Source: a virus
Length of the DNA stretch: 33,771 bases
Virus record (IMG/VR): IMGVR_UViG_3300043470_001101
Location: 1-33,771 of that record
Direction: 5' to 3' (one strand)
A model generated the notes under the pieces. That model was not told the origin of the DNA, ran no database searches, and saw only the letters and a program-made list of their open reading frames with translations. This document shows, piece after piece, positions 8,632 through 33,771 of this stretch (position 1 is its first letter; each line of letters begins with the position of its first letter). Both the position numbers and the translations under genes were made by a program.

Positions 8632-8979
8632 ATTTTAGACAAAGCGAAATTATTAGGCGCTGGTAGTGCCTATAAGCTCGGGGAGATCGAGATCCCCGAG
8701 CTCGGCGGCAAAGTCTATCTTCGAGTGATCAGCTCCCGCGAGCGTGATCAGCTTGAAAGCGAAATAAGCTCCGGAGCAAAGTCGGGAAATCTGACGAACA
8801 TCAGAGCAAAGCTCGTCGTGCGATCGATCGCCGATGAAACCGGAAAGCGTCTTTTCTCCGATGCTGATGTCGAGGCAGTAGGAGAGATGCCAGCGCCCTT
8901 GGTGGGCACTCTTTTCGACGCCTGCGCTCGTCATAATGGCATGAGCGGTGGAGCAGTCGAAGACGCCAGAAAAAACTAA
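8632..8979 (+). CDS. Tail assembly chaperone G-like, apparent AUU start
   Basis: A 115-residue protein that would bind the tape measure during tail assembly. The pattern 'EIEIPELGGKVYLRVISSRERDQLESE...NIRAKLVVRSIADETGKRLFSDADVEAVGE' matches the phage tail assembly chaperone family. The coding similarity extends upstream of the first GTG (8719) to the stop at 8617-8619. The only position with a good Shine-Dalgarno (AAGGAG 8618-8623, 8-base gap) is ATT at 8632, so initiation is assigned to AUU. The last codons, AGA AAA AAC TAA, form a slippery site. Confidence 0.85.
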   Translation: MLDKAKLLGAGSAYKLGEIEIPELGGKVYLRVISSRERDQLESEISSGAKSGNLTNIRAKLVVRSIADETGKRLFSDADVEAVGEMPAPLVGTLFDACARHNGMSGGAVEDARKN

Positions 8980-9302
8980 TAGAGCGCCCTGGGCGTCGAT
9001 TTTTATTCCGACTCGCAGGGCACTTAAAAAAAACAGTTCGAGAGATTCTCGATGAAGTCGATTCTCAGGAGCTTACTGAGTGGCAGGCCTTTTCAACGAT
9101 CGAACCGCTCGACGGAGATCGAGGCGACATTCATGCCGCTCAGATCTGCTCGACGACTGCGAACGTCTGGAGAGGCTCAGAGACAAAAGCTCTCGAGGTG
9201 AAAGACTTCCTCCCGGACTGGTACGGCGAGAATAAAAAAGTCGAAAGCTTTGCTGCGCTAAAAGCCTGGGCGAGCGCGGTGGGAACTAAGAAACAGGAGT
9301 GA
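8632..9302 (+). CDS. Tail assembly chaperone G-T fusion made by -1 frameshift
   Basis: The region 8980-9302 has no start codon of its own but encodes a clear T-like (DUF4035-like) domain: FRLAGHLKKTVREILDEV...LTEWQAF...DGDRGDIHAAQICSTTANVWRG, ending KDFLPDW near the C-terminus. It lies in the -1 frame relative to the G gene. The heptamer A AAA AAC (8970-8976) stands immediately before the G stop, and after slipping, reading continues at CTA 8976. A small hairpin follows 7 bases later (8984-8988 with 8992-8996). This is the conserved G/G-T arrangement of long-tailed phages. The fusion is about 222 residues. Confidence 0.88.
8970..8996 (+). promoter_or_regulatory. Programmed -1 frameshift signal
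   Basis: Slippery heptamer A AAA AAC at 8970-8976, in the correct phase for X XXY YYZ slippage, followed at once by TAA. Downstream, GCGCC (8984-8988) can pair with GGCGT (8992-8996) around CTG, 7 bases after the slip site, a typical stimulator distance. Confidence 0.87.
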
Positions 9303-9306
9303 CGAC

Positions 9307-12036
9307 ATGGCCAAAACAATCGGATCGCTAAACGTTTCGATGGGTCTGTCGATCACCGATTTCATACAGAATCTCGACAAAGTAAAAGAAGACATGGCAG
9401 GGCTCGAGGCGATCACCTCGCAAGCCTCAAAGCACTTCGATGATGACGTCGCTGGAATCATGGGCGACGCGCTTCATAAATTTGCAAAGACATCGAAGCT
9501 CGGAGCTGACGACGCTTTAAAATTCGCAGTGAGTTTAAAGAAGCTTGGCCTCGATGCGGACACGATCACCAGCACCCTCGACAAGTTCGGGAAAGGGATC
9601 GGCAAGTTCGCAAAAAACGCAGGCGAAGCGAGCAAAGCTTTTGCGGGCATCCTCGGAAAAATCGGCGACAGCGATAAGGTTCTTTTGAAAGATATTCAGG
9701 CACTCGAGTCGATGGGCGTGAAAGCTTTTGACTCTCTCGCAAAAGAACTCTCGAAGGTCGAAGGGAAAGCGATCAGCACTGCGGATGTTATGAAGAGGAT
9801 CGCCTCGGGATCGCTCTCTGGAGCAGATGCGCTTAAGCTCTTGACGCAGGGCGGTCAGGCTCAAGCGGGTGGAGGCGTCGCCGCTAAGGAGTCGCAGGCA
9901 AAATCGAAGCTTACATCATTTCTAAACTACGTCGAAAATAAAATCAGCAGTGCGGCCTCGAGCATCTTTTCTAAAGTCACTAGCCTCATCATGAACCCAG
10001 TGACGCTGATCAGTGGCGCTCTCGCCTCTTATGGCGTCTACAAAATTTATGATCGCGCGGTCGACGCTTTTGCAAATACTGAGGAGATCCTCACGAGAAT
10101 TAAAGGCCTCGCAGGAGATGCGAGCGCCGATCGACTCGGTGGTGTCATGAATGGGATCGCTAATCAAGGACGCATCGCCCAAGAAGTCGTCGGGAAACTG
10201 GCGACAGGATTTCTCGGTCTTGGTGTCTCAGGCAAAGACGCAGCTCAGATGATCGAAAGCTTTGGTCGCATATCGCTCATCGCAGGATCTGGAGCTTCCG
10301 ACGTATTTGGGAAGCTCGGCGAGGTCGCCCAGAACATGACCCGGACGGGGCAAGCTTCCAAGGATGATTTCGAGGCTCTCGCAGCGATGGGTCTTCCAGT
10401 TTACGAGGCACTGGCGCAAAGGTTGTCACTGGTGCAGGGTAAAGCAATCAGCGCTAATGAAGCGATGAGAATGCTGGCAGAAGGGAAAGTCGGCACAGCG
10501 GACGCGCTCAATGCGATCTCAGGGATGAGTAATAATGCGGACGTGATTAAACAGTCGGAAGCGATGGCAGGAACGCTCAAAGGAATTTACGCTCGACTCG
10601 CAGGAGAGATCGAAGGTTTCTTCACCGAGTTCGGTGGCGTGATAGTCGATGCTCTCGACCTCAAAGGGTTCTCGAATGGGGTCATCGGTTTTATTCAAAA
10701 CATTCGCATGAACTTCGATTCACTTATTCCAGCGATTAAAAACATCGGTATGGTTTTCGCAGTAGTTCGCGACGTTCTTTTTCAGGCTTTCGAAGGGCTG
10801 GTGAATTTCTTTACGACGATGGGAGGCGCAGACGTAGCGACAGGAAGCATCGACAATATAAGATCAGTCGTTTTAGGTTTCGCTCACGGTGTCATCACTG
10901 CAATGCAATCTGTAATGTTTGCAGCAGTCGACATCTTAAACAATATTATCAAAACAGTCGGAGGCCTCGAGAAATTCGGCGCAATCGTAGCTGGTGTTTT
11001 TGCAGGAGCAGGAACTGGAGCTCTAGCTGGTGGCTTAAGCACTGGTGTGGGTGCTCTTCCTGGTGCGATCATCGGTGGTGTCACGGGTGGTCTTTATGCT
11101 AATAGCAAAGTATCTGGAGGTGGAACGCAGATCGATCCCGAGATGATTAAAGATAAAATGCAGGGTGCATTTAAAGCGATTAACGATGCTATAGGAAACA
11201 CCGGATCTGACGCTGCGGGAAATCTCGTCGGCCAGTTCGTCAAGAAATTTAATGACGCATTTAAAGCAGTCGGAGCTGGCGAGTTTAATACGGCGACGGC
11301 ACTTTCACAGATTTCAAATTCCATGATTAATATGTTCGATAATCTTGAAATAGGATTAGAGAACGGAACGATCGGACATTCAGCATTTCTTAAACAGCTC
11401 TCCGGAGGAACTGCCAGCGCAATCGCAATGTTCCAGCGACAGATGGCACTTGGAGCGATATCGACAGAGCAGTTCGAGACAGCTATGGAAAAGCTAAGAA
11501 CCGGAGCTTTCGAGGCTCTCGATTCACAGCTCAGCGCAGGCACTATCACCAATGAAGAATATGGCAACTCGATTATGGCGATTCAGAATCAGTTTGATTC
11601 TCTTAATCCCCCAGAGATCTCGGGATTTGATGCTTTTAAAGGTGGCGATAATATGCCCGCATGGATCAGAGATCTTTCGAAAGAAGAGAGCCCTCTCGAG
11701 GCATATCAAAGAAAACTCGAAGAACTAAAAAACACGCTCCAAGATCGGCCCGACCTTTTCGCTGTGGGTGCAGCGAAGCTCGCTGACGAGCTCGAGCGCA
11801 GCGTCGGAGCTGTCGAAGCACTTAAGAATCCGGGAGCTCTTATGCAGGGAAGTTCAGCAGCATTCTCGCAGGCGCTTAAAATTCAGAATGCAGGAAAGGG
11901 CGAAACCGCAGCGGAGAAACTTCTGCGAATACAGCAGCAGGCCTTTAGCCAGCAGCAGGCACAGACTGCTCTTCAGCAGCAGATCGCAGCAGCGACCATG
12001 AATCAGGCGAATATGATCGTCGCTAACATAAACTAA
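9307..12036 (+). CDS. Tape measure protein
   Basis: A 909-residue protein that sets tail length and is threaded through the tube. Residues about 250-410 carry the tape measure domain (FANTEEILTRIKGLAGD, GRISLIAGSGASDVFGKLGEVAQNMTRTGQASKDDFEALAAMGLPVYEAL). Hydrophobic stretches occur at about 226-245 and 555-600 (Gly/Ala-rich). The C-terminus is Gln/Ala-rich coil. The motif at residues 352-404 is repeated, diverged, at 128-180. At about 1.5 angstrom per residue, as in known phages, the tail would be near 135 nm. The start ATG 9307 follows CAGGAG and lies 4 bases after the G-T stop. Confidence 0.93.
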   Translation: MAKTIGSLNVSMGLSITDFIQNLDKVKEDMAGLEAITSQASKHFDDDVAGIMGDALHKFAKTSKLGADDALKFAVSLKKLGLDADTITSTLDKFGKGIGKFAKNAGEASKAFAGILGKIGDSDKVLLKDIQALESMGVKAFDSLAKELSKVEGKAISTADVMKRIASGSLSGADALKLLTQGGQAQAGGGVAAKESQAKSKLTSFLNYVENKISSAASSIFSKVTSLIMNPVTLISGALASYGVYKIYDRAVDAFANTEEILTRIKGLAGDASADRLGGVMNGIANQGRIAQEVVGKLATGFLGLGVSGKDAAQMIESFGRISLIAGSGASDVFGKLGEVAQNMTRTGQASKDDFEALAAMGLPVYEALAQRLSLVQGKAISANEAMRMLAEGKVGTADALNAISGMSNNADVIKQSEAMAGTLKGIYARLAGEIEGFFTEFGGVIVDALDLKGFSNGVIGFIQNIRMNFDSLIPAIKNIGMVFAVVRDVLFQAFEGLVNFFTTMGGADVATGSIDNIRSVVLGFAHGVITAMQSVMFAAVDILNNIIKTVGGLEKFGAIVAGVFAGAGTGALAGGLSTGVGALPGAIIGGVTGGLYANSKVSGGGTQIDPEMIKDKMQGAFKAINDAIGNTGSDAAGNLVGQFVKKFNDAFKAVGAGEFNTATALSQISNSMINMFDNLEIGLENGTIGHSAFLKQLSGGTASAIAMFQRQMALGAISTEQFETAMEKLRTGAFEALDSQLSAGTITNEEYGNSIMAIQNQFDSLNPPEISGFDAFKGGDNMPAWIRDLSKEESPLEAYQRKLEELKNTLQDRPDLFAVGAAKLADELERSVGAVEALKNPGALMQGSSAAFSQALKIQNAGKGETAAEKLLRIQQQAFSQQQAQTALQQQIAAATMNQANMIVANIN

Positions 12037-16597: not shown

Positions 16598-17731
16598 ATG
16601 GCGACAGTATTACGAATAAAGCGAAGGGCATCGGGTGGTGGCACTTCCGGGCCTTCTACTTTGGCAGCCGCTGAAATCGCATTTAATGAAACTTCGGGGT
16701 CTCGCATATTGTACTACGGACTTGGCGACGTCTCCGGAACAGCGTCGAGCGTGATCGCTATAGGCGGGCCCGATTTCGTGGCGAACAGCATCCCAAATCT
16801 CACGGGCGTGGTCACCAGCACCGGGGTGGCGACGAGTATCGCAGCGGGCGCAATCACTAACACGATGCTCGCAAATTCTGCTGTCGCTAATTTAAGCGGG
16901 ATTAACTCTGGGGATAACGCTGTAAACAGTCTCTACAGCTCCCTCATCTCCGATAAAACTGTAGTTCTGACCGCAGGCACAGGGGTCACAGTTACAGGCA
17001 CTTATCCATCGTTTACGATCTCTGCCACTGGATCGGGTGGAACTGTTACCACGACATCAGTCGTGAGTGCGAATGGTTTTGCAGGAACAGTTTCGAACGC
17101 ATCGAGCACACCAGCGATCACGATTTCGACTTCGGTCACCGGAGTTCTCAAAGGCAACGGAACCGCACTGAGCGCAGCGACTGCGGGAACTGACTACGTC
17201 GCTCCTGGTGGAGCTCTGGGAACTCCATCATCGGGAACACTCACGAATTGCACATTCCCGACCTTGAATCAAAACACCACAGGAACTGCCGCGGGATTAT
17301 CAGCGACGCTCGCTGTGGCATCAGGTGGCACTGGAGTCACGACCAGCACCGGAACAGGCTCAGTCGTTCGCTCTAATAGCCCAGCTCTTGTGACTCCTGA
17401 CATTGGGGCAGCGACTGGCACTTCACTCGTCCTAAGTGGAAACCTCACCGTCAACGGAACGACGACAACCATCTCATCGACGACTCTCGCTGTGGGCGAC
17501 AAGAACATCGTTCTTGCGAGTGCCTCGACCACCGATGCGGGGGCTGATGGGGGTGGCATCACCATCAAAGGTCTAACCGATAAAACGTTTAACTGGATTG
17601 ATGCCACCGATAGCTGGACATCTTCCGAGCACATCGATCTCGCTTCCGGGAAGGTATTAAAATTTAACGGCACTACTGTTTTGAGTGCCACAGTTCTCAA
17701 CGGTGTTGATATAGATGGGGGGTCTTTCTGA
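16598..17731 (+). CDS. Tail fibre protein
   Basis: A 377-residue Gly/Ser/Thr/Ala-rich protein with AAGGAG-type ribosome site before ATG 16598. The N-terminus ([14 protein letters not shown]...[23 protein letters not shown]) is the fibre-attachment type module seen also in the proteins at 17731 (C-terminal part) and 18549. The body has text typical of beta-helical phage fibres ([40 protein letters not shown]). It ends GVDIDGGSF. Probably part of a trimeric fibre for host recognition. Confidence 0.78.
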
Positions 17732-18549
17732 TGCCTAGTTATTGCGTCCAAAATGCTGGTACATCAGCTTATAATGGCACCTATGATTATTATGCAGCCG
17801 GTGAATATCGAAAGGTAGGAAGTCCCACTATAAAGATTAATTATAATGGTGACGACCTCTGGTTTTTTATTAACGGCAGTACGGAAGGGTATACTGCAAG
17901 TGGTTCTGCTGCTACACCACCTCTGACCGGATGGAATGTTTCAGGCAATGGAACATCACCAGCCCCAACGCTAACAGAGGGAGCCTGTTTAATAGATCCT
18001 TACTGCGTCGCGGGTGCAGGAACGACAGTAGCTAATGGAACTTACAGCTTTAATTCTAGTTCATACAACCAATTCATGTCTGGATACTGGCAGCACATCA
18101 CCGAGCCACTTTTAAAAATGGGCATGGGCATGATGGGTTCGTATGAAATCATTAATGATTCCACTAGACTTTATTACGCATCGACCTTAACTGGCACTTG
18201 GACTGTAGATTATGGTACAGCATCAGCCCCCACAGTTACAGCGGGAGCGTGTAGTTCCCCGACCCCGACACCAAGCCCGACGCCGAGCCCTACTCCGAGC
18301 CCGACACCAAGCCCGACGCCGAGCCCGACACCAAGCCCGACGCCGAGCCCTACTCCGAGCCCGACACCGAACATCATCCGACCCAAAAGAAGCACGACTG
18401 CATCTGCTGTTCCGTCTTCATTACAACCGTTTGAGCTTGCGGTAAATATTTCCGATAAGCGTATATGGTGCGCCGACGCTTCCGGGGTTCCTGTGCTTAT
18501 GTCTGAACTTAACGACCTCCCGAGCTCGATCGATGGAGGCACGTTTTAG
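17731..18549 (+). CDS. Modular tail fibre protein with PTPS linker
   Basis: A 272-residue protein overlapping its neighbour by one base (TGATG). Residues 4-88 and 91-174 are two diverged copies of a module beginning YCV-x-x-AGT and NGTY and ending P-T-L/V-T-x-GAC, probably a carbohydrate-binding-like fold exposed on the fibre. Residues 177-213 are a Pro-Thr-Pro-Ser repeat linker. Residues 217-262 ([31 protein letters not shown]) copy the N-terminal module of the next protein. It ends SIDGGTF. Adhesion role is inferred. Confidence 0.68.
18259..18369 (+). repeat. Low-complexity PTPS-coding repeat
   Basis: About nine tandem 12-base units encoding Pro-Thr-Pro-Ser, with synonymous variation between units (AGCCCGACACCA, AGCCCGACGCCG, AGCCCTACTCCG). 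The arrangement of variants suggests duplication of larger 24-36 base blocks. It encodes an extended linker. Confidence 0.95.
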
Positions 18550-19469
18550 TGGCGAACACGATTCGACCAAAGCGATCTTATACAGCAGCATCTGTGCCCG
18601 CAGCATCGATCGCCGGGGAATTATCTATAAACGCAGCCGATGGTAAAATATGGATCACGAACGCTGCTGCGACATCACAGATTCTTGTCTCATCTTTAAA
18701 CCGCAGTGACCACACAGGAACTTTAGGTGTGGCATCAGGTGGCACAGGACTAACCACACTCACGGCAAATAATGTCATCCTTGGCAATGGCACCAGCACC
18801 CCAAGCTTTGTTGCTCCTGGTGCATCTGGCAACCTACTTACGAGCAATGGAACAACTTGGCAAAGCACTACCCCATCATCATCATCATCCATGCCAACTG
18901 GCGCACTCATGCCCTATGCAGGAGCTAGCGCACCTACTGGATATCTTTTGTGTGATGGCAGTAGTGTCAGTAGTTCGAGCTTTTTAGCACTACACGCAGT
19001 CATCAGTAACACCTATGGCGGATCTGCTTACACAGGGGCAGGCGCACTTAGTTTTAATCTGCCCGACCTCAGGGGCCGTCTCCCGATGGGTGCTGGAACT
19101 GGTACTGGGCAGAACGCATCAGGCACAGGGGCACCGAGTGGAACCGCACAAACAGCTAGGACTAGGGGCCAGTGGGGTGGAGAAGAAACCAACCTTTTAA
19201 GCACCACAGAAATGCCTAGCCATAATCACGGTGGAACAACGCAGGGTGGTGGTAGTCATAGCCATACACCAGCAGGAAGCATTGGGAATGTAGGACTAGG
19301 AACCAATAATCTAGCAGTTTCTGGTGGATCTCAATGGGGCTTTTCATCGACTGCAACCATCACCAACACCGTAGCCAATCACACACACACTATCGATGCT
19401 CAGGGTGGGGGTGGAAGGCATAACAATGTTCCACCTTTTGTTGTCCTTAATTACATTATTAAAACCTAG
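18549..19469 (+). CDS. Tail fibre with C-terminal tail-collar domain
   Basis: A 306-residue protein starting at GTG 18549 inside the preceding stop (TAGTG). Residues 1-50 (NTIRPKRSYTAASVPAASIAGELSINAADGKIWI) are the attachment module. Residues about 118-200 form the phage tail collar domain (PTGALMPYAGASAPTGYLLCDGSSVSSSSFLALHAVI, then LPDLRGRLPMGAG). The C-terminus carries clustered His (SHNHGG, SHSHTP, NHTHT) like the metal-binding stem of T4 gp12-type short fibres, and ends NVPPFVVLNYIIKT, the usual end of this family. Likely receptor-binding tip. Confidence 0.88.
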   Translation: MANTIRPKRSYTAASVPAASIAGELSINAADGKIWITNAAATSQILVSSLNRSDHTGTLGVASGGTGLTTLTANNVILGNGTSTPSFVAPGASGNLLTSNGTTWQSTTPSSSSSMPTGALMPYAGASAPTGYLLCDGSSVSSSSFLALHAVISNTYGGSAYTGAGALSFNLPDLRGRLPMGAGTGTGQNASGTGAPSGTAQTARTRGQWGGEETNLLSTTEMPSHNHGGTTQGGGSHSHTPAGSIGNVGLGTNNLAVSGGSQWGFSSTATITNTVANHTHTIDAQGGGGRHNNVPPFVVLNYIIKT

Positions 19470-19478
19470 GATCAAATC

Positions 19479-19667
19479 ATGGAAATACTTATAACTGAAA
19501 CAGTGCAAAGTGAATTTGGCTCAGCAGGCTTCAATGTCACCTTCATTAATCGCAATAAAAAAAAGGTGGTGAATGATGCTGACTTCTTTCCTGAAGGTTC
19601 AGAAATTGAAGTAAAAATAAAGCAGCTTAAACGATTACTGAAACAATATTTCGACGCACAGGTATAA
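19479..19667 (+). CDS. Small hypothetical protein
   Basis: A 62-residue protein between the last fibre gene and the lysis cluster. It has a beta-rich first half (EILITETVQSEFGSAGFNVTFIN) and a basic amphipathic helix at the end (EVKIKQLKRLLKQYF). No family recognised. AGGATC lies a few bases upstream of ATG 19479. Possibly a fibre accessory protein, by position only. Confidence 0.55.
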   Translation: MEILITETVQSEFGSAGFNVTFINRNKKKVVNDADFFPEGSEIEVKIKQLKRLLKQYFDAQV

Positions 19668-19679
19668 CCCGAAAGGCCC

Positions 19680-21206
19680 ATGATGAACCTTTTTCTTTAC
19701 CTCTTGTTTTTTTCTCAGATCGAAGCGAGCTCCGTCGAGGGTGGACGCACTTCTCCCGATGGGTCGGAAGAGATCCAGATCGATCTTCCGGGATCGCAGC
19801 AGATGAAAAACACCGGAGGAAGAGACGGCGCTGGCCTATGCGTCTTCACGTCGATCGAGCACGCAGGACGATGGCAGAACGTCGATTCGATCCTCGGACT
19901 ACAACAGAAGATGACAAAAGAAATGGGTGGCGGCTATCCCTCGAAGGTCGAGAAGATGCTTTCGAAATACTGCGACGGAGCACAGTACCTTCAATATGAG
20001 GGCAGCGATCCCTCACTGATTAAACTCGCTCTTACCACTGGCAGAATGCCATCGGTTACTTATGGGTACTCTCCGAGGTACGCAGGAAAGATTGCGCATA
20101 TGGTAAACGCCGTGCACCTCACAGAAAAATGGGCAGCGATCCTCGATAACAATTTCCCTGGTGAAAATAAATATGAGTGGATGTCTCCCGCAGAATTCAA
20201 AAGACGATGGATCTCTGGAGGTGGTGGGTGGGCAGTAGTTCTTCTTGCTCCTCCTCCTCCTCCGCTGCCAACGAATGACACAGAACCTCTTAAAGCATAC
20301 GGTCAGAAATGGGGCTCACTCGGGTGCGCTGCGGTCGCAGTGCCTTACGAGTGGCGAGCCATCGATGCGGATCAAGTCGCCCTTTACAGCGGAGCAGTTC
20401 AGCGCGGGGTCTGGATCAGAGCTCGACAGTCTTATCGAGAGCTTTTGCCTGATGGGAACTGGGGAGCGGATCAGGAGCTCGCACCGATTGCGCCTCCTGA
20501 GACTCACCTCATGAAGATGATCGAGCAGAAGGAACAGAACTTCGGGCTCGACCGATCGCGCATTGATTCAGGCGTCGAAAAGTTTTGGCTTGGAGGTCGA
20601 GAGGTTACACGCAAGCAGGCATATTCAGCGATCGAGGGAACTGGGAAAGACCTTGTCGACGACAGGGAGAAGCTCCGGCTCACTGTGATCGGCACAGCAT
20701 CAGAGTGCTCATCTGTCATGAAGGATCTTGAAAGCGATCCCGCTCTCAAAGCTTTTGCAGAAACGATGCTAGTGCAGTCATACCGACCCGATTCATGGGC
20801 TGTGAAAGATATTGGCCTTCTTCCGGGATCTCCTCGAATTATCGTGCAGGGAGGCCCAGACTCTCGAGGCGCAGGGAAAGTTCTTCACTCTCAGGGCGAT
20901 TACGATGGAGGAGCGAAAGCTCTTGCTGACGCACTGCGAAAAGTTCGGCCCGACTACGATCCGAAACGCGATGCCGACCTTCGAAAGCCTGCGCCAATCC
21001 TGCCGACGCCGTCGCTCCCCGGCAATGGAAACAGCACGATCGCACTGCTGGTGATGCTTATCGCTGGTGGTCTGACCGTCGCAGGTTTCCCTGTCCTAGC
21101 ATCTCTAGTCAGAGCATGGGGAGCGATGTTTGCAGCTAAAGCGCCAGAGGTTAAAGTGGAAACTTTAAAGCGAAAAACTGTAAAGCCTAGAAAGAAAAAG
21201 GCTTAG
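19680..21206 (+). CDS. Membrane-anchored papain-like cysteine peptidase with thioredoxin-like domain (candidate lysis enzyme)
   Basis: A 508-residue multidomain protein. Residues 1-16 (MMNLFLYLLFFSQIEA) look like a signal peptide. Residues about 45-185 fit a C39/papain-like peptidase: GLCVFTS with Cys54, IAHMVNAVHL with His140, and ILDNNFPG with Asp156/Asn157 as third member. Residues about 325-430 resemble a thioredoxin-like fold (RLTVIGTASECSSV, GSPRIIVQGG, GKVLHSQGDYDGGAKALADALRK) but lack CxxC. A transmembrane helix lies near 463-485, with a basic cytoplasmic tail. Being just upstream of a holin-like gene, it may cleave peptidoglycan peptides or cell-surface protein. The catalytic role is inferred. 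Confidence 0.62.
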   Translation: MMNLFLYLLFFSQIEASSVEGGRTSPDGSEEIQIDLPGSQQMKNTGGRDGAGLCVFTSIEHAGRWQNVDSILGLQQKMTKEMGGGYPSKVEKMLSKYCDGAQYLQYEGSDPSLIKLALTTGRMPSVTYGYSPRYAGKIAHMVNAVHLTEKWAAILDNNFPGENKYEWMSPAEFKRRWISGGGGWAVVLLAPPPPPLPTNDTEPLKAYGQKWGSLGCAAVAVPYEWRAIDADQVALYSGAVQRGVWIRARQSYRELLPDGNWGADQELAPIAPPETHLMKMIEQKEQNFGLDRSRIDSGVEKFWLGGREVTRKQAYSAIEGTGKDLVDDREKLRLTVIGTASECSSVMKDLESDPALKAFAETMLVQSYRPDSWAVKDIGLLPGSPRIIVQGGPDSRGAGKVLHSQGDYDGGAKALADALRKVRPDYDPKRDADLRKPAPILPTPSLPGNGNSTIALLVMLIAGGLTVAGFPVLASLVRAWGAMFAAKAPEVKVETLKRKTVKPRKKKA

Positions 21207-21278: not shown

Positions 21279-21500
21279 ATGGATGGATTAAAAGCAGGGT
21301 GGAAGACTTCAGAATTCTGGACGACGCTCGTCGTTCAAGCAGTTTCGCTCACAGTAGTTCTCGGGCTCATGAATCACACCGACAGCGCAACGCTCACCGA
21401 CTCGCTCACGACGATGGTGACTGCGGCATTCTCCCTGATGATCTCAGGATCGACTGCGATGGCTTACATAAAATCACGATTTGAACTGAAGGCAAAATGA
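21279..21500 (+). CDS. Putative holin
   Basis: A 73-residue protein with two predicted membrane helices (about 14-32 FWTTLVVQAVSLTVVLGLM and 43-64 LTTMVTAAFSLMISGSTAMAYI), a short loop and a charged C-terminus (KSRFELKAK). Size, topology and location after the peptidase gene suit a class II-type holin. A strong AAGGAGG site precedes ATG 21279. The stop overlaps the next ATG (ATGA). No holin family signature was recognised. Confidence 0.65.
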   Translation: MDGLKAGWKTSEFWTTLVVQAVSLTVVLGLMNHTDSATLTDSLTTMVTAAFSLMISGSTAMAYIKSRFELKAK

Positions 21501-21643
21501 ACCTTCACCAGATCATCACGGGTGCGCTCGTCGGGTGGTGCGTATGGCTCACCCTTTTCAGCTCATGTCACTGCTATGCTGACAGACCATTTTTAAAACT
21601 GGCGAAGCTCCTTCTGTGGCTCTTGGGGAGCCTCGCTCTGTAG
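21497..21643 (+). CDS. Small membrane protein, possible lysis accessory
   Basis: A 48-residue reading frame coupled to the holin-like gene by ATGA. It has a hydrophobic N-terminal segment (IITGALVGWCVWLTLFSSC) that could be a signal anchor or lipoprotein-like signal (FSSC is a weak lipobox), and a second hydrophobic segment (FLKLAKLLLWLLGSLAL) at the C-terminus. A spanin-like or antiholin role is only a guess, based on place and size. Confidence 0.5.
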   Translation: MNLHQIITGALVGWCVWLTLFSSCHCYADRPFLKLAKLLLWLLGSLAL

Positions 21644-21654
21644 GGAGAAAAGAA

Positions 21655-22005
21655 ATGGTCGAAGACGATCCCTGGCTAAAACACCTCGAGCAGATTTACA
21701 CCGATCGAGATAATGGAGCGAAAGCATCAGACCCCGAGGATCTGCGCACGCTCATGCTGCGTCGTCTTGTCGTGACTTTCGGTGTCGATTCGGACTACGT
21801 CAATAGTTTGATGCCTCTCCTGGTTCAGCAGTTCGTGATCGAATACGCAAGACATGGGTCGAGTAAACGGTGCTTTGAAAATCTCGACGATAATTTCGTC
21901 GATCTTAGCGATCCAAGATTTCAAGTGAAACTGAAAAAGATTCGGCGTGGTCGTGGAACTGATCCTTATGAAATCCCCAGGGCGAGAGATAAAAACGATG
22001 GCTGA
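21655..22005 (+). CDS. Hypothetical protein
   Basis: A 116-residue soluble protein. ATG 21655 is preferred, being 6 bases after GGGAGA; an earlier in-frame GTG at 21616 would overlap the preceding gene. It is helical and acidic at the N-terminus, with a basic patch (VKLKKIRRGRGT) near the C-terminus. No family recognised. It overlaps the zinc-ribbon gene by 8 bases. Confidence 0.6.
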   Translation: MVEDDPWLKHLEQIYTDRDNGAKASDPEDLRTLMLRRLVVTFGVDSDYVNSLMPLLVQQFVIEYARHGSSKRCFENLDDNFVDLSDPRFQVKLKKIRRGRGTDPYEIPRARDKNDG

Positions 22006-22465
22006 AATTACCTGCGCAGGATGCGGGAACATTAGACCACATCGAGCGAAGGGTCTCTGCATTAAATGTTATGATCGGATTCCGCGCAGGCTCATTACCT
22101 GCATCTCATGCGGGGAGCGAAAACCTCATGAAGCTCGCCAGCTCTGCCGCTCGTGTTACAAGAACAGCGGATCAGGCACACCCTTTCTGAAGTCGTCTCT
22201 GGGATGCGTGATTGCTGAAGAGGAAGACAGGCGAGACTCTATGAGAGTGCCACCGCTGACCCCGACAATGGCTCGCCCAGGCACAGAGGAAAAGATTCAA
22301 GTCATGATTGCTCGCCATGCTCGATTCGAGACCCTATATCATGAGCACGACTGCGTGATCCCGAAGGAGCTCGACACGATCACACCCACTCGCAGCAAAA
22401 ACGGTGGCTGGCATAATGGGCCGACTATAATCTTTTCGACCCCGGAGCTGATCGAGGATGAATAA
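21998..22465 (+). CDS. Double zinc-ribbon protein
   Basis: A 155-residue protein. Two successive zinc-binding units are visible in the first 55 residues: CAGCG...CIKCY and CISCG...CRSCY, each followed by a basic stretch and spaced as near-copies of one another (IRPHRAKGLCIKCY / RKPHEARQLCRSCY). The rest has no recognised domain but contains REAR-type charged helices and a His-rich short stretch (YHEHD). Zinc-ribbon proteins of this size in phages are often small regulators or nucleic-acid binders; the actual role is unknown. Start chosen at ATG 21998. Confidence 0.68.
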   Translation: MAEITCAGCGNIRPHRAKGLCIKCYDRIPRRLITCISCGERKPHEARQLCRSCYKNSGSGTPFLKSSLGCVIAEEEDRRDSMRVPPLTPTMARPGTEEKIQVMIARHARFETLYHEHDCVIPKELDTITPTRSKNGGWHNGPTIIFSTPELIEDE

Positions 22466-22682
22466 GCAGTCTCGATCCATGTCTCTTGTAGAATCAGCGG
22501 CGAACACGGGCGCGGGGTTTCTGCTCTCCCTAGTGCTCCAGATTTCCCTTTTCTCTGCCATGTCGATCGAGACTACCACCTCCCAGAACCTCGTCATGAG
22601 CATCGTTTTTACGCTCGCATCACTAGTGCGAGGCTACCTCATGAGGAGGGTTTTCTTATGGTTTGAGGAGTCAAAACCCTGA
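22458..22682 (+). CDS. Small phage membrane protein, DUF7220-like
   Basis: A 74-residue protein with two membrane helices. The pattern SRSMSLVESAANTGAGFLLSLVLQISLF...TTSQNLVMSIVFTLASLVRGYLMRRVF matches a widespread small phage protein (sequence pattern SLVE..AN...G, then QN..I...FT..S..R.Y..RR.F) that I recall as DUF7220. Function is unknown. It is the last gene before the attachment region and overlaps the previous gene by 8 bases. Confidence 0.78.
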   Translation: MNKQSRSMSLVESAANTGAGFLLSLVLQISLFSAMSIETTTSQNLVMSIVFTLASLVRGYLMRRVFLWFEESKP

Positions 22683-22987: not shown

Positions 22988-24199
22988 ATGAAGCGAACAC
23001 CAAAATTCTGTCACCATAAGGGCACTGATAGAGGGTACGCGACAGACCCTCGAACAAAAAAAGAAGTGTGGTTCGGGCCTTGGGGGCTCGCTGCCACGAA
23101 ACAAAAGTATCTGCGGTGGGTCGCGGAACTTTTAACGGAAGAGGTCGCTCCCAGAGTCGCTCCTGAGAACGAGCCCATAGTCGCTGATTTAGTAAATGCT
23201 TTTATTAAGCACGCTATTTCGTATTACCGGGATCCTGTCACAGGGCAGCCGACGTCGCAGCTCGGTGTCCTAAAGTCAGCACTGCGGGAGCTCGATCTTT
23301 ATCTTGAAATGCCGATCCGAGATTTCGGCCCTTCTACTCTTCTCGCAGTGAGAGCAGGAATAGTGAACAGAGATATCATGCCGCAGAGCTCGACGACTAA
23401 AAAAAAGAAACTTTGCATCTCTTCGGTGAACGGAGCAATTACTAAAATTCGGATGATGTTTAAATTAGGCGTTGAGTGGCAGATCGTTCCCGTCGAGATT
23501 TATCAGGCACTCGCCTGCGTGAAAGCACTTAACTGGCGAACAGCTCCTTCGCTCCGATCACCTGAGAAGATCGCACCAGTACCGCTGCATTACTTCTCGC
23601 TCATCATGCCTCATCTTAAACCGCTTTATCAGGCAGTGCTCAAAGTTCACATTGCCACGGGCATGAGGGTGAAGGAGCTGTGCTCGATGAGGTGGTCAGA
23701 GATTACCGAGGTCGAAGACGGGCTCTGGTGCTATGCACCGAGCGAACACAAGAACAGTCACCGAGGCGACGATCGAAAAGTTTATCTTAAGAGCGACCTC
23801 ATCGAGCTCATGAAGAGCGTGAGAAAACCACTCTGGAAAGAAGACGCGGTCTGGTGTCATCGAGGAGTGGGTCGCCATGCTGGTTACAGTGGAATGATTT
23901 CTGCGGATGCCTACGCTCGAGCGATCGAGAATGCTCAGGCGCGATACAATGACGGGCGAGTCAGTCGGCAGGCAGGAGCTCGGACAGACCTTAAGAAGAA
24001 ATATAAATACACCTCAGCGAAACGAGAACCGATGGCGCACTGGACGCCACTCCAGATAAGGCACACGGTCGCAACGCAGGTTCGCAGGACTCACGGGCTC
24101 GAGGGAGCGCAGGCAGTTTTGGGTCATTCGACGCTTGATGCCACTCAGATTTATGCTGAAAAACGTGACGATTTAGCGAGGAGCGTAGCACGATCGTAA
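22988..24199 (+). CDS. int: Tyrosine site-specific integrase
   Basis: A 403-residue tyrosine recombinase, full length. Residues 60-185 form the core-binding domain. Catalytic residues: Arg227 (ATGMRVKEL), Lys255 probable, Arg358 (LQIRHT), His380 (LGH), Tyr389 (TQIYAEK). The His of the usual HxxR box is Leu355. The N-terminal 'KFCHHKGTDRGYATD...WFGPWG' and the ending resemble planctomycete integrases from memory. It catalyses recombination between attP and a host tRNA-Pro. It has its own promoter; no excisionase is directly adjacent (the AlpA-like gene at 29809 is a candidate). Confidence 0.94.
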   Translation: MKRTPKFCHHKGTDRGYATDPRTKKEVWFGPWGLAATKQKYLRWVAELLTEEVAPRVAPENEPIVADLVNAFIKHAISYYRDPVTGQPTSQLGVLKSALRELDLYLEMPIRDFGPSTLLAVRAGIVNRDIMPQSSTTKKKKLCISSVNGAITKIRMMFKLGVEWQIVPVEIYQALACVKALNWRTAPSLRSPEKIAPVPLHYFSLIMPHLKPLYQAVLKVHIATGMRVKELCSMRWSEITEVEDGLWCYAPSEHKNSHRGDDRKVYLKSDLIELMKSVRKPLWKEDAVWCHRGVGRHAGYSGMISADAYARAIENAQARYNDGRVSRQAGARTDLKKKYKYTSAKREPMAHWTPLQIRHTVATQVRRTHGLEGAQAVLGHSTLDATQIYAEKRDDLARSVARS

Positions 24200-32685: not shown

Positions 32686-33771
32686 ATGAAGATTCGAGAC
32701 CGAATAAAAGAATTGAGACGAGTAAAAGCTTCGGAGCTAATACCGAACCCGAAGAACTGGAGAACGCATCCGGTCGCTCAACAGGACGCGCTCAAAGGCA
32801 TTCTTGCCGAGGTCGGTTTTGCAGGAGCGGTGTTGGCTCGGGAGCTCGACGACGGATCGCTCATGTTGATCGATGGGCACATGAGAGCAGAGACAACACA
32901 CGACCAAGAGATCCCAGTGCTCATCCTCGATGTCGATGAAGCCGAGAGCGATAAACTTCTTGCCACGTTCGACCCGATCGCAGCGATGGCAGAGAGCGAT
33001 CCTCAAGCTCTCGATGCGCTCCTTCGAAATGTAAACACGGGCAGCGAGGCTCTTCAAAAAATGCTGGCTGATCTGGCTGAGGGCGCAGGACTTTATCTCG
33101 ATGAAAAGGAAGTCGTCGAGGATGAGATACCGGAACCTCCTGAAGATCCGATCACAAAATCAGGAGACCTTTGGGTGCTTGGAGATCATCGTCTTTTATG
33201 CGGTGACTCAACGACGGTCACTGATGTTAAAAAGCTAATGGGTGATGAGCGATCGGATCTCATGCTTACCGATCCACCTTACAACGTCGATTACACTGGG
33301 AAAACAAAAGACGCACTTAAGGTCGAGAACGATTCAATGAGCGATGCTGACTTCCGAAGATTTTTAGTGGCCTGCTTTAAGAATGCATTTGACTCTATGA
33401 AACCCGGAGCGTCTTTTTATATTTTTCATGCCGATAGAGAAGCTTACAACTTTATTGGATCTATTCGTGACTGTGGCGAAAAAATTCGCCAGTGTCCAGT
33501 CTGGGTTAAAAATTGTCTCGTGATGGGCAGACAGGATTACCAACAACAGCACGAGCCGATTTTATACGGATGGAAGCAGGGCGCTGCACATTCGTGGTTT
33601 AGTGGTCGAGCAGATACTACAGTCTTTGATGACTCAAGGCCGAAAGATTTAACAAAGCTTAAAAAGAGCGAACTCCTTGCGTTTGCTCAGTCTCTTGTTT
33701 CTCAGATGGAAAAGCACGAGACCACAGTTCTTCGAGAAGTAAAACCGAATGCAAGTATTGATCACCCCACG
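32686..33771 (+). CDS. ParB-domain DNA methyltransferase, N-terminal part (gene split by window ends)
   Basis: Open to the window end and continued at base 1-388, giving 436 residues. Residues about 12-85 are a ParB/Srx-like domain (ASELIPNPKNWR, DGHMRAE), residues 171 onward the methyltransferase (GDSTTVTDVKKLM, LMLTDPPYN with DPPY at 196-199). The pair is a well-known phage fusion (COG1475 plus COG0863 type), used to modify DNA against restriction or in regulation. ATG 32686 follows TAGGAGG. Base 33645 differs from base 37 but both give Lys. Confidence 0.93.
   Translation, partial: MKIRDRIKELRRVKASELIPNPKNWRTHPVAQQDALKGILAEVGFAGAVLARELDDGSLMLIDGHMRAETTHDQEIPVLILDVDEAESDKLLATFDPIAAMAESDPQALDALLRNVNTGSEALQKMLADLAEGAGLYLDEKEVVEDEIPEPPEDPITKSGDLWVLGDHRLLCGDSTTVTDVKKLMGDERSDLMLTDPPYNVDYTGKTKDALKVENDSMSDADFRRFLVACFKNAFDSMKPGASFYIFHADREAYNFIGSIRDCGEKIRQCPVWVKNCLVMGRQDYQQQHEPILYGWKQGAAHSWFSGRADTTVFDDSRPKDLTKLKKSELLAFAQSLVSQMEKHETTVLREVKPNASIDHPT
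33609..33771 (+). repeat. Terminal direct repeat (matches 1-163)
   Basis: The final 163 bases repeat the first 163 with a single difference (A at 33645, G at 37). Such end overlap is what a circularly assembled genome shows; physically redundant ends are the alternative. Confidence 0.97.

Follow-up and report, generated by a model that had tools for sequence, protein, structure and literature searches.

The 508-aa protein analyzed here is probably the endolysin of its phage, acting as a membrane-tethered endopeptidase. Its gene lies in record IMGVR_UViG_3300043470_001101, classed as a virus; the window, that is, the whole stretch of DNA that was analyzed, is 33,771 nt long. The two window ends (1-163 and 33609-33771) share a 163-bp direct repeat with a single mismatch, inside a DNA methylase frame that is still open where the window stops and continues at its start. 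Because of this repeat inside an interrupted frame, the window most likely represents a complete genome with circular permutation. The phage is a siphophage with head genes of the HK97 type (terminase, portal, S78 protease, capsid); other genes code for tail proteins, including a collar protein, a tyrosine integrase and CsrA. We take the phage to be a temperate siphophage of planctomycetes. The gene, found at exactly the coordinates given in an earlier note on this DNA, and its two landmarks are as follows:

19680-21206, plus strand: protein of 508 aa with peptidase, thioredoxin-like and membrane-anchor parts (ORF, dN/dS, AlphaFold)
18549-19469, plus strand: tail collar/fibre protein, landmark upstream of the peptidase gene
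22988-24199, plus strand: tyrosine integrase, landmark downstream of the peptidase gene

Across the gene, dN/dS was 0.058 in comparison with L007 and 0.071 in comparison with L008, the two nearest usable relatives. Values of about 0.06-0.07 mean that the ORF is a real gene under constraint; together with the homologs they rule out a chance ORF. A frameshifted or truncated protein was ruled out as well, since relatives keep the same architecture intact. The parts follow each other in the order of probable signal peptide, papain-fold peptidase, poly-proline segment, small beta domain, thioredoxin fold, membrane helix and basic tail. The earlier note had missed the poly-proline segment (residues 191-197), the separate beta domain (residues 211-265) and the two-gene state observed in many relatives.

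For reading the structure we used the AlphaFold model built with a 75-row alignment (mean pLDDT 81, about 95 in the peptidase); a model made with 15 close relatives only had a pLDDT of 46. In sequence and profile searches, neither domain had a relevant match in Pfam, PHROG, NCBIfam or PDB. Searches by tblastn produced no match either for four members of the family against 50,697 named phages or for one member against 72,556 plasmids. Therefore, the function is not readable from any named phage.

The features of the peptidase domain are:

19737-20249, plus strand: papain-like cysteine peptidase domain, residues 20-190 (AlphaFold, Foldseek, conservation)
19809-19811, plus strand: Asn44, present in 49/49 viral members, candidate oxyanion-hole residue
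19839-19841, plus strand: Cys54, predicted nucleophile, opening helix 54-66 (model and invariance)
20097-20099, plus strand: His140, predicted catalytic base, within strand 137-147 (model and invariance)
20145-20153, plus strand: Asp156-Asn157-Asn158, invariant, with Asp156 the predicted third triad residue (model and invariance)

A papain/C39-like domain with Cys54, His140 and Asp156 had been read from the sequence earlier, and this reading was borne out by the AlphaFold model, by the Foldseek search and by invariance in the viral members; the predicted fold does have a Cys-His pair. In the model, the core helix opens with the cysteine, and the histidine and then the aspartate come on subsequent strands, which is the arrangement of a papain fold. 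Asp156 comes directly after strand 152-155, sixteen residues past His140, and this order and spacing match those of His159 and Asn175 in papain. The residues N44, C54, H140, D156, N157, N158 and W184 are invariant in all 49 aligned viral members (alignment A10), with identity down to ~32%, and the triad is likewise invariant in alignment A5.

No glutamine is present six residues before the cysteine, the position of the oxyanion-hole Gln, and for this reason we claim a papain-like fold and no named papain family. The invariant Asn44, ten residues before Cys54, may have the equivalent role. Among the weak Pfam matches of the 49 members at E 0.1 there was no peptidase family, Peptidase_C39 and C39_2 (MEROPS C39) included. 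The invariant N44/C54/H140/D156-N157-N158 set and the papain topology of the model argue for an active enzyme.

The best Foldseek match in PDB was the phytochelatin-synthase-like Alr0975, at about 10% identity; further matches were C39-type proteases (PCAT1, 3erv), staphopains and the PeiR pseudomurein endoisopeptidase (probability 1.00). Among the viral models of BFVD, the top match was the endolysin of Gordonia phage OneUp (probability 1.00, E 1.1e-3). For this multi-domain query the E values were only about 1e-3 to 1e-2, while the probabilities were near 1. With E values this modest, and with a phytochelatin synthase as the closest solved structure, the substrate does not follow from the fold alone. 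The match to Alr0975 would suit a transpeptidase-type enzyme acting, like phytochelatin synthase, on small periplasmic thiols rather than hydrolyzing the wall. We regard such an enzyme as extremely improbable, however: the likeness is at the fold level only, and the conserved pairing with lysis-type neighbors, described below, would be left unexplained.

Papain-like cysteine peptidases with a known or predicted action on the wall occur in other phages, as in the N5 domain of mycobacteriophage LysA, which matches a C39-like peptidase, and in the OneUp endolysin; the L5 endolysin, with a predicted peptidase and a presumed wall-binding domain only, acts on the wall (PMC3314691). LysA-type enzymes are modular, mostly with amidase or glycosidase and wall-binding modules, and have no anchor (PMC3314691), whereas the 508-aa protein has a probable signal peptide, a thioredoxin fold and a membrane helix, with no sequence similarity to the LysA and OneUp enzymes detected and no recognized wall-binding domain. 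The PeiW and PeiP (C71) and PeiR enzymes of methanogen viruses are also papain-like and cut a wall peptide bond (PMC6189367; PMC10318531), and PeiR is active against methanogens (PMC6189367). They differ in having pseudomurein-binding repeats and acting on archaeal walls, and no membrane anchor or thioredoxin-like partner is described for them. Given that papain/C39-like phage lysins such as LysA N5 and PeiR are known, the "new type of lysin" suggested in the earlier note would be new only in part.

The segments that would export and anchor the protein are:

19680-19733, plus strand: probable signal peptide, residues 1-18 (AF2 helix 2-12, hydrophobic N-terminus kept in relatives)
21039-21095, plus strand: C-terminal membrane helix, residues 454-472 (mean hydropathy 2.28)
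21135-21203, plus strand: basic tail, residues 486-508, predicted from the sequence to be cytoplasmic

The membrane helix and the basic tail behind it agree with the C-terminal helix proposed earlier. The signal peptide, also proposed earlier, is likely, not certain: its hydrophobic N-terminus is kept in close relatives, but the segment is short and has no charged n-region. Judging by the sequence, the protein is probably exported by Sec.

Such export would place the papain-like peptidase and the thioredoxin-like part in the periplasm, with the C-terminal helix and the basic tail holding the pre-lysin at the inner membrane. At the time of lysis, the small membrane protein encoded at 21279-21500, a holin candidate, would damage the membrane and free or unleash the enzyme. 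With Cys54, His140 and Asp156, the enzyme would then cleave peptide bonds in the wall, the likeliest targets being cross-links or stem peptides of the peptidoglycan. The thioredoxin fold may act as a binding or anchoring partner; many relatives encode this part in the next gene, as a membrane protein of its own.

The proposed route would be analogous to that of SAR and signal-peptide endolysins, which are exported by Sec and stay at the membrane until the holin acts. They differ in having an N-terminal anchor and other catalytic families; the anchor of the 508-aa protein is C-terminal, on the thioredoxin-like domain, and the protein has no N-terminal signal-anchor-release segment that would make it a SAR endolysin. 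We know of no close precedent for a lysin with a C-terminal anchor.

Between the peptidase and the membrane helix, we distinguished three elements:

20250-20270, plus strand: conserved poly-proline segment PPPPPLP, residues 191-197
20310-20474, plus strand: small all-beta domain of five strands, residues 211-265 (AlphaFold)
20520-20999, plus strand: thioredoxin-fold domain without CxxC, residues 281-440 (AlphaFold, Foldseek)

The earlier note was right about a thioredoxin-like domain without CxxC. Its elements appear in the AlphaFold model between residues 332 and 422 (strand 332-337, helix 340-352, strand 363-368, strands 386-393 and 398-405, helix 411-422), and a proline occupies the usual cis-Pro place (GSPRIIVQ). 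Foldseek matched this part to the DsbD C-terminal domain (DsbD-gamma, probability about 0.9), the thioredoxin domain of Grx3 and the Deadhead thioredoxin, the latter with TMt 0.63 and rmsd 2.8, values in agreement with a thioredoxin fold. The fold is common to bacterial periplasmic thioredoxin-like proteins (the DsbD C-terminal domain and its kin). Since none of 40 aligned members has a CxxC motif, the domain is not a disulfide enzyme, and a redox enzyme was ruled out. The cysteine C343 is not conserved beyond the near subfamily.

In standalone peptidases of the family the poly-proline run is the C-terminus, typically one residue past the domain. Three or more prolines in a row were present in 44 of the 49 standalone peptidases, with all four proline codons in use. 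As no domain follows, the run can not be a linker in these proteins; we propose that it is a docking tail. The small beta domain belongs to the partner protein in split systems. Planctomycete proteins of 167 aa (L061, L062) have it after a signal peptide, with neither of the other two domains.

A more ambitious version of the endolysin proposal would be a two-component tethered lysin, in which the poly-proline tail of the peptidase docks on the beta domain of the thioredoxin-like membrane protein, which keeps the peptidase silent at the membrane until lysis. The two components would be fused in the lineage of the window and would make up the standard lysis enzyme of the phages of this planctomycete class, replacing all canonical endolysins. 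We consider this version possible, if rather doubtful as a whole.

Close relatives of the protein were found in viral contigs and in one Planctomycetaceae MAG, which carries a second, shorter homolog that led to the wider family. Members of the family are present in 28/95 genomes of the MAG's family and, by a domain-profile search, in 53/298 genomes of its class. A full-length-profile search of 392 genomes of the phylum, with 3 candidates scored per genome, had only two positive genomes; because of the counts from the family and class searches, we treat this figure as a search artefact. Many further viral contigs carry the family, which was thus found both in planctomycete genomes and in planctomycete phages; the pair of peptidase and thioredoxin-like partner is present in about a hundred related viral contigs.

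The partner accompanies the peptidase in 62 of the 74 non-redundant members, fused in 31 and encoded by the next gene in 31, and the tree requires 5 fusion/fission changes from one state to the other. Among the other 12 members, several are truncated by the end of their contig or stand beside a diverged thioredoxin-like protein (L084, L139). With 62/74 paired, a one-off chimera was ruled out. What the earlier note termed a "chimera" is better seen as a fusion of two genes that are neighbors in many relatives. Separate partner proteins have the thioredoxin fold, often the beta domain, and in 38/45 cases a C-terminal membrane helix. Separate peptidases retain a hydrophobic N-terminal segment, often with a Pro-rich linker after it, and distant ones have a lipobox. 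Attachment to the membrane is therefore kept by different means, i.e., by a C-terminal helix, by an N-terminal anchor with a Pro-rich linker or by a lipobox. Wide retention of the pair, both in phages and across the class to which the host MAG belongs, is what one would expect of a core function.

Some members depart from the common plan. For example, a 661-aa member (L068 8424-10409, genome G415) has a trypsin/HtrA-like stretch (GDSGSG) between the peptidase and thioredoxin-like parts. Diverged pairs in L210-L216 and L219 (about 8800-10700), with lipobox peptidases and N-terminally anchored partners, lie in the head-tail block of planctomycete prophages, and one of these genomes (G656) carries two copies in opposite orientation.

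The position of the gene could be compared with that of known lysis genes. Two phages whose portal is related (about 45% identity) have the order terminase, portal, capsid region, tape measure, tail, holin and/or endolysin, followed in one of them by an invertase and an integrase; their lysins are recognized by Pfam (Amidase_2+LysM and GH25). The window shows the same gene order, with the peptidase gene and a gene for a 73-aa membrane protein in the holin/endolysin slot. The small genes around the peptidase gene are:

19479-19667, plus strand: conserved 62-aa ORF directly 5' of the peptidase gene, without a family match
21279-21500, plus strand: 73-aa membrane protein, holin candidate, with one clear and one weaker hydrophobic stretch
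21497-21643, plus strand: 48-aa membrane protein overlapping the end of the holin candidate, possibly a further member of the lysis cassette

The family of the 73-aa protein adjoins the pair in 13 loci; in the window the protein had no match to a holin family. The 62-aa ORF is conserved beside tail or lysis genes in 15 loci, and L031 has a similar 49-aa ORF in the place of the 48-aa protein. Small membrane ORFs were more frequent at less than 1 kb from the pair (27/105) compared to further off (27/348; odds ratio 4.1, p 4e-6); by a crude test, 22/34 loci had such an ORF near the pair and 12/34 had none. The position and the adjoining small membrane protein fit a lysis cassette, with a putative holin.

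Other lineages have the pair immediately ahead of the terminase (L084, L214, L218) or between the head genes and the tail genes (L210-L216, L219), both of them known locations of lysis genes as well (P2). The location among head and tail genes could, on the other hand, indicate a late assembly or entry factor, a peptidase that processes virion proteins or rides on the tail and breaches the wall during infection. Such a factor appears very improbable, as the signal peptide, the lipobox and the membrane anchors clash with cytoplasmic virion assembly, and an S78 prohead protease is encoded elsewhere in the window.

The earlier note had named superinfection exclusion or surface modification as the alternative to lysis: the anchored periplasmic peptidase of a lysogen would cleave a receptor or injection protein of an incoming phage, or an envelope protein of the host. 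Predicted export and anchoring, the integrase of a temperate phage and the chromosomal location of some copies, with no obvious phage genes nearby (L066), are all compatible with this role. However, exclusion genes are usually variable accessory genes, while this pair has been retained by phages of great diversity, which have no other recognized lysin, and it lies in the late gene block, in the lysis slot. This alternative, which fits the broad conservation and the absence of other lysins less well, seems to us quite improbable.

With respect to other lysins, the earlier observation that no ordinary endolysin is visible was confirmed by a Pfam search over the proteins of the window, most likely a complete genome, which revealed no lysin family; the 508-aa protein itself did not match a known lysin catalytic family. 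In ten near-complete relatives (206 protein clusters in all), Pfam was run over 110 non-redundant proteins and gave no lysin family either. Amidase_2 was found in 0/30 records bearing the family, and CHAP, phage lysozyme and Amidase_3 in 0/31 each; these records were selected because they carry the family, and many of them are incomplete. Each of the searches does give matches in control genomes. An unrecognized second lysin in these genomes is possible.

Such a second enzyme would be needed if the pair had an auxiliary part in lysis, removing proteins of the outer layers (S-layer-like proteins or outer-membrane lipoproteins) in place of spanins while the unrecognized enzyme cuts peptidoglycan. 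The fold is close to that of true proteases, membrane tethering is kept by all three routes, and the partner adds a second membrane protein, just like in spanin pairs. Spanins (Rz/Rz1) are likewise two membrane-attached lysis proteins, typically an inner-membrane protein and an outer-membrane lipoprotein, made from adjacent genes or as one protein; they are, however, not enzymes, and the pair described here, with its invariant catalytic triad, does not belong to them. Against an auxiliary part, no candidate for a peptidoglycan enzyme was present in the window or among the 110 proteins of relatives, and we hold it to be unlikely.

We return, then, to the endolysin proposal. Because the pair has the position of lysis genes and no ordinary lysis enzyme was found in the tested contigs, these phages probably lyse their hosts by means of this pair. 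Together with the small membrane neighbors and the structural likeness to lysins of phages and archaeal viruses, these findings strongly support, without proving it, the lysin role put forward in the earlier note.

That note had reasoned from the unusual wall of planctomycetes, an argument with less force than it was given there. The sacculus of these bacteria consists of peptidoglycan that contains DAP and is sensitive to lysozyme (PMC4432640); therefore, an endopeptidase of the wall has a target. On the other hand, one planctomycete phage was reported to exit its host without lysis (PMC10945688), so that lysis is not to be assumed in planctomycetes. In the open-access papers searched we found nothing on how phages lyse these bacteria. 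A testable answer comes from two families that have no model in Pfam, PHROG or NCBIfam and occur as a pair in many phages and prophages. If it is true, the lysis gene can be named in about a hundred unannotated phage contigs, a lysin can be built as an anchored peptidase with a non-redox partner of thioredoxin fold, and a tool enzyme for planctomycete walls would be at hand.

Further observations concern genes other than the pair. A DUF7220 membrane protein is encoded at 22458-22682 (Pfam 1.2e-23), shortly 5' of the integrase. The C-terminal part (ARPGTEEKIQVMIARH...) of a double zinc-ribbon-like protein encoded at 21947-22465 recurs beside the pair in other phages and was also found in a chromosomal remnant (L065). 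Proteins of the tail region (window 17731-18549; L009 5258-6211) contain long TP/SP repeat tracts that are unlike between relatives.
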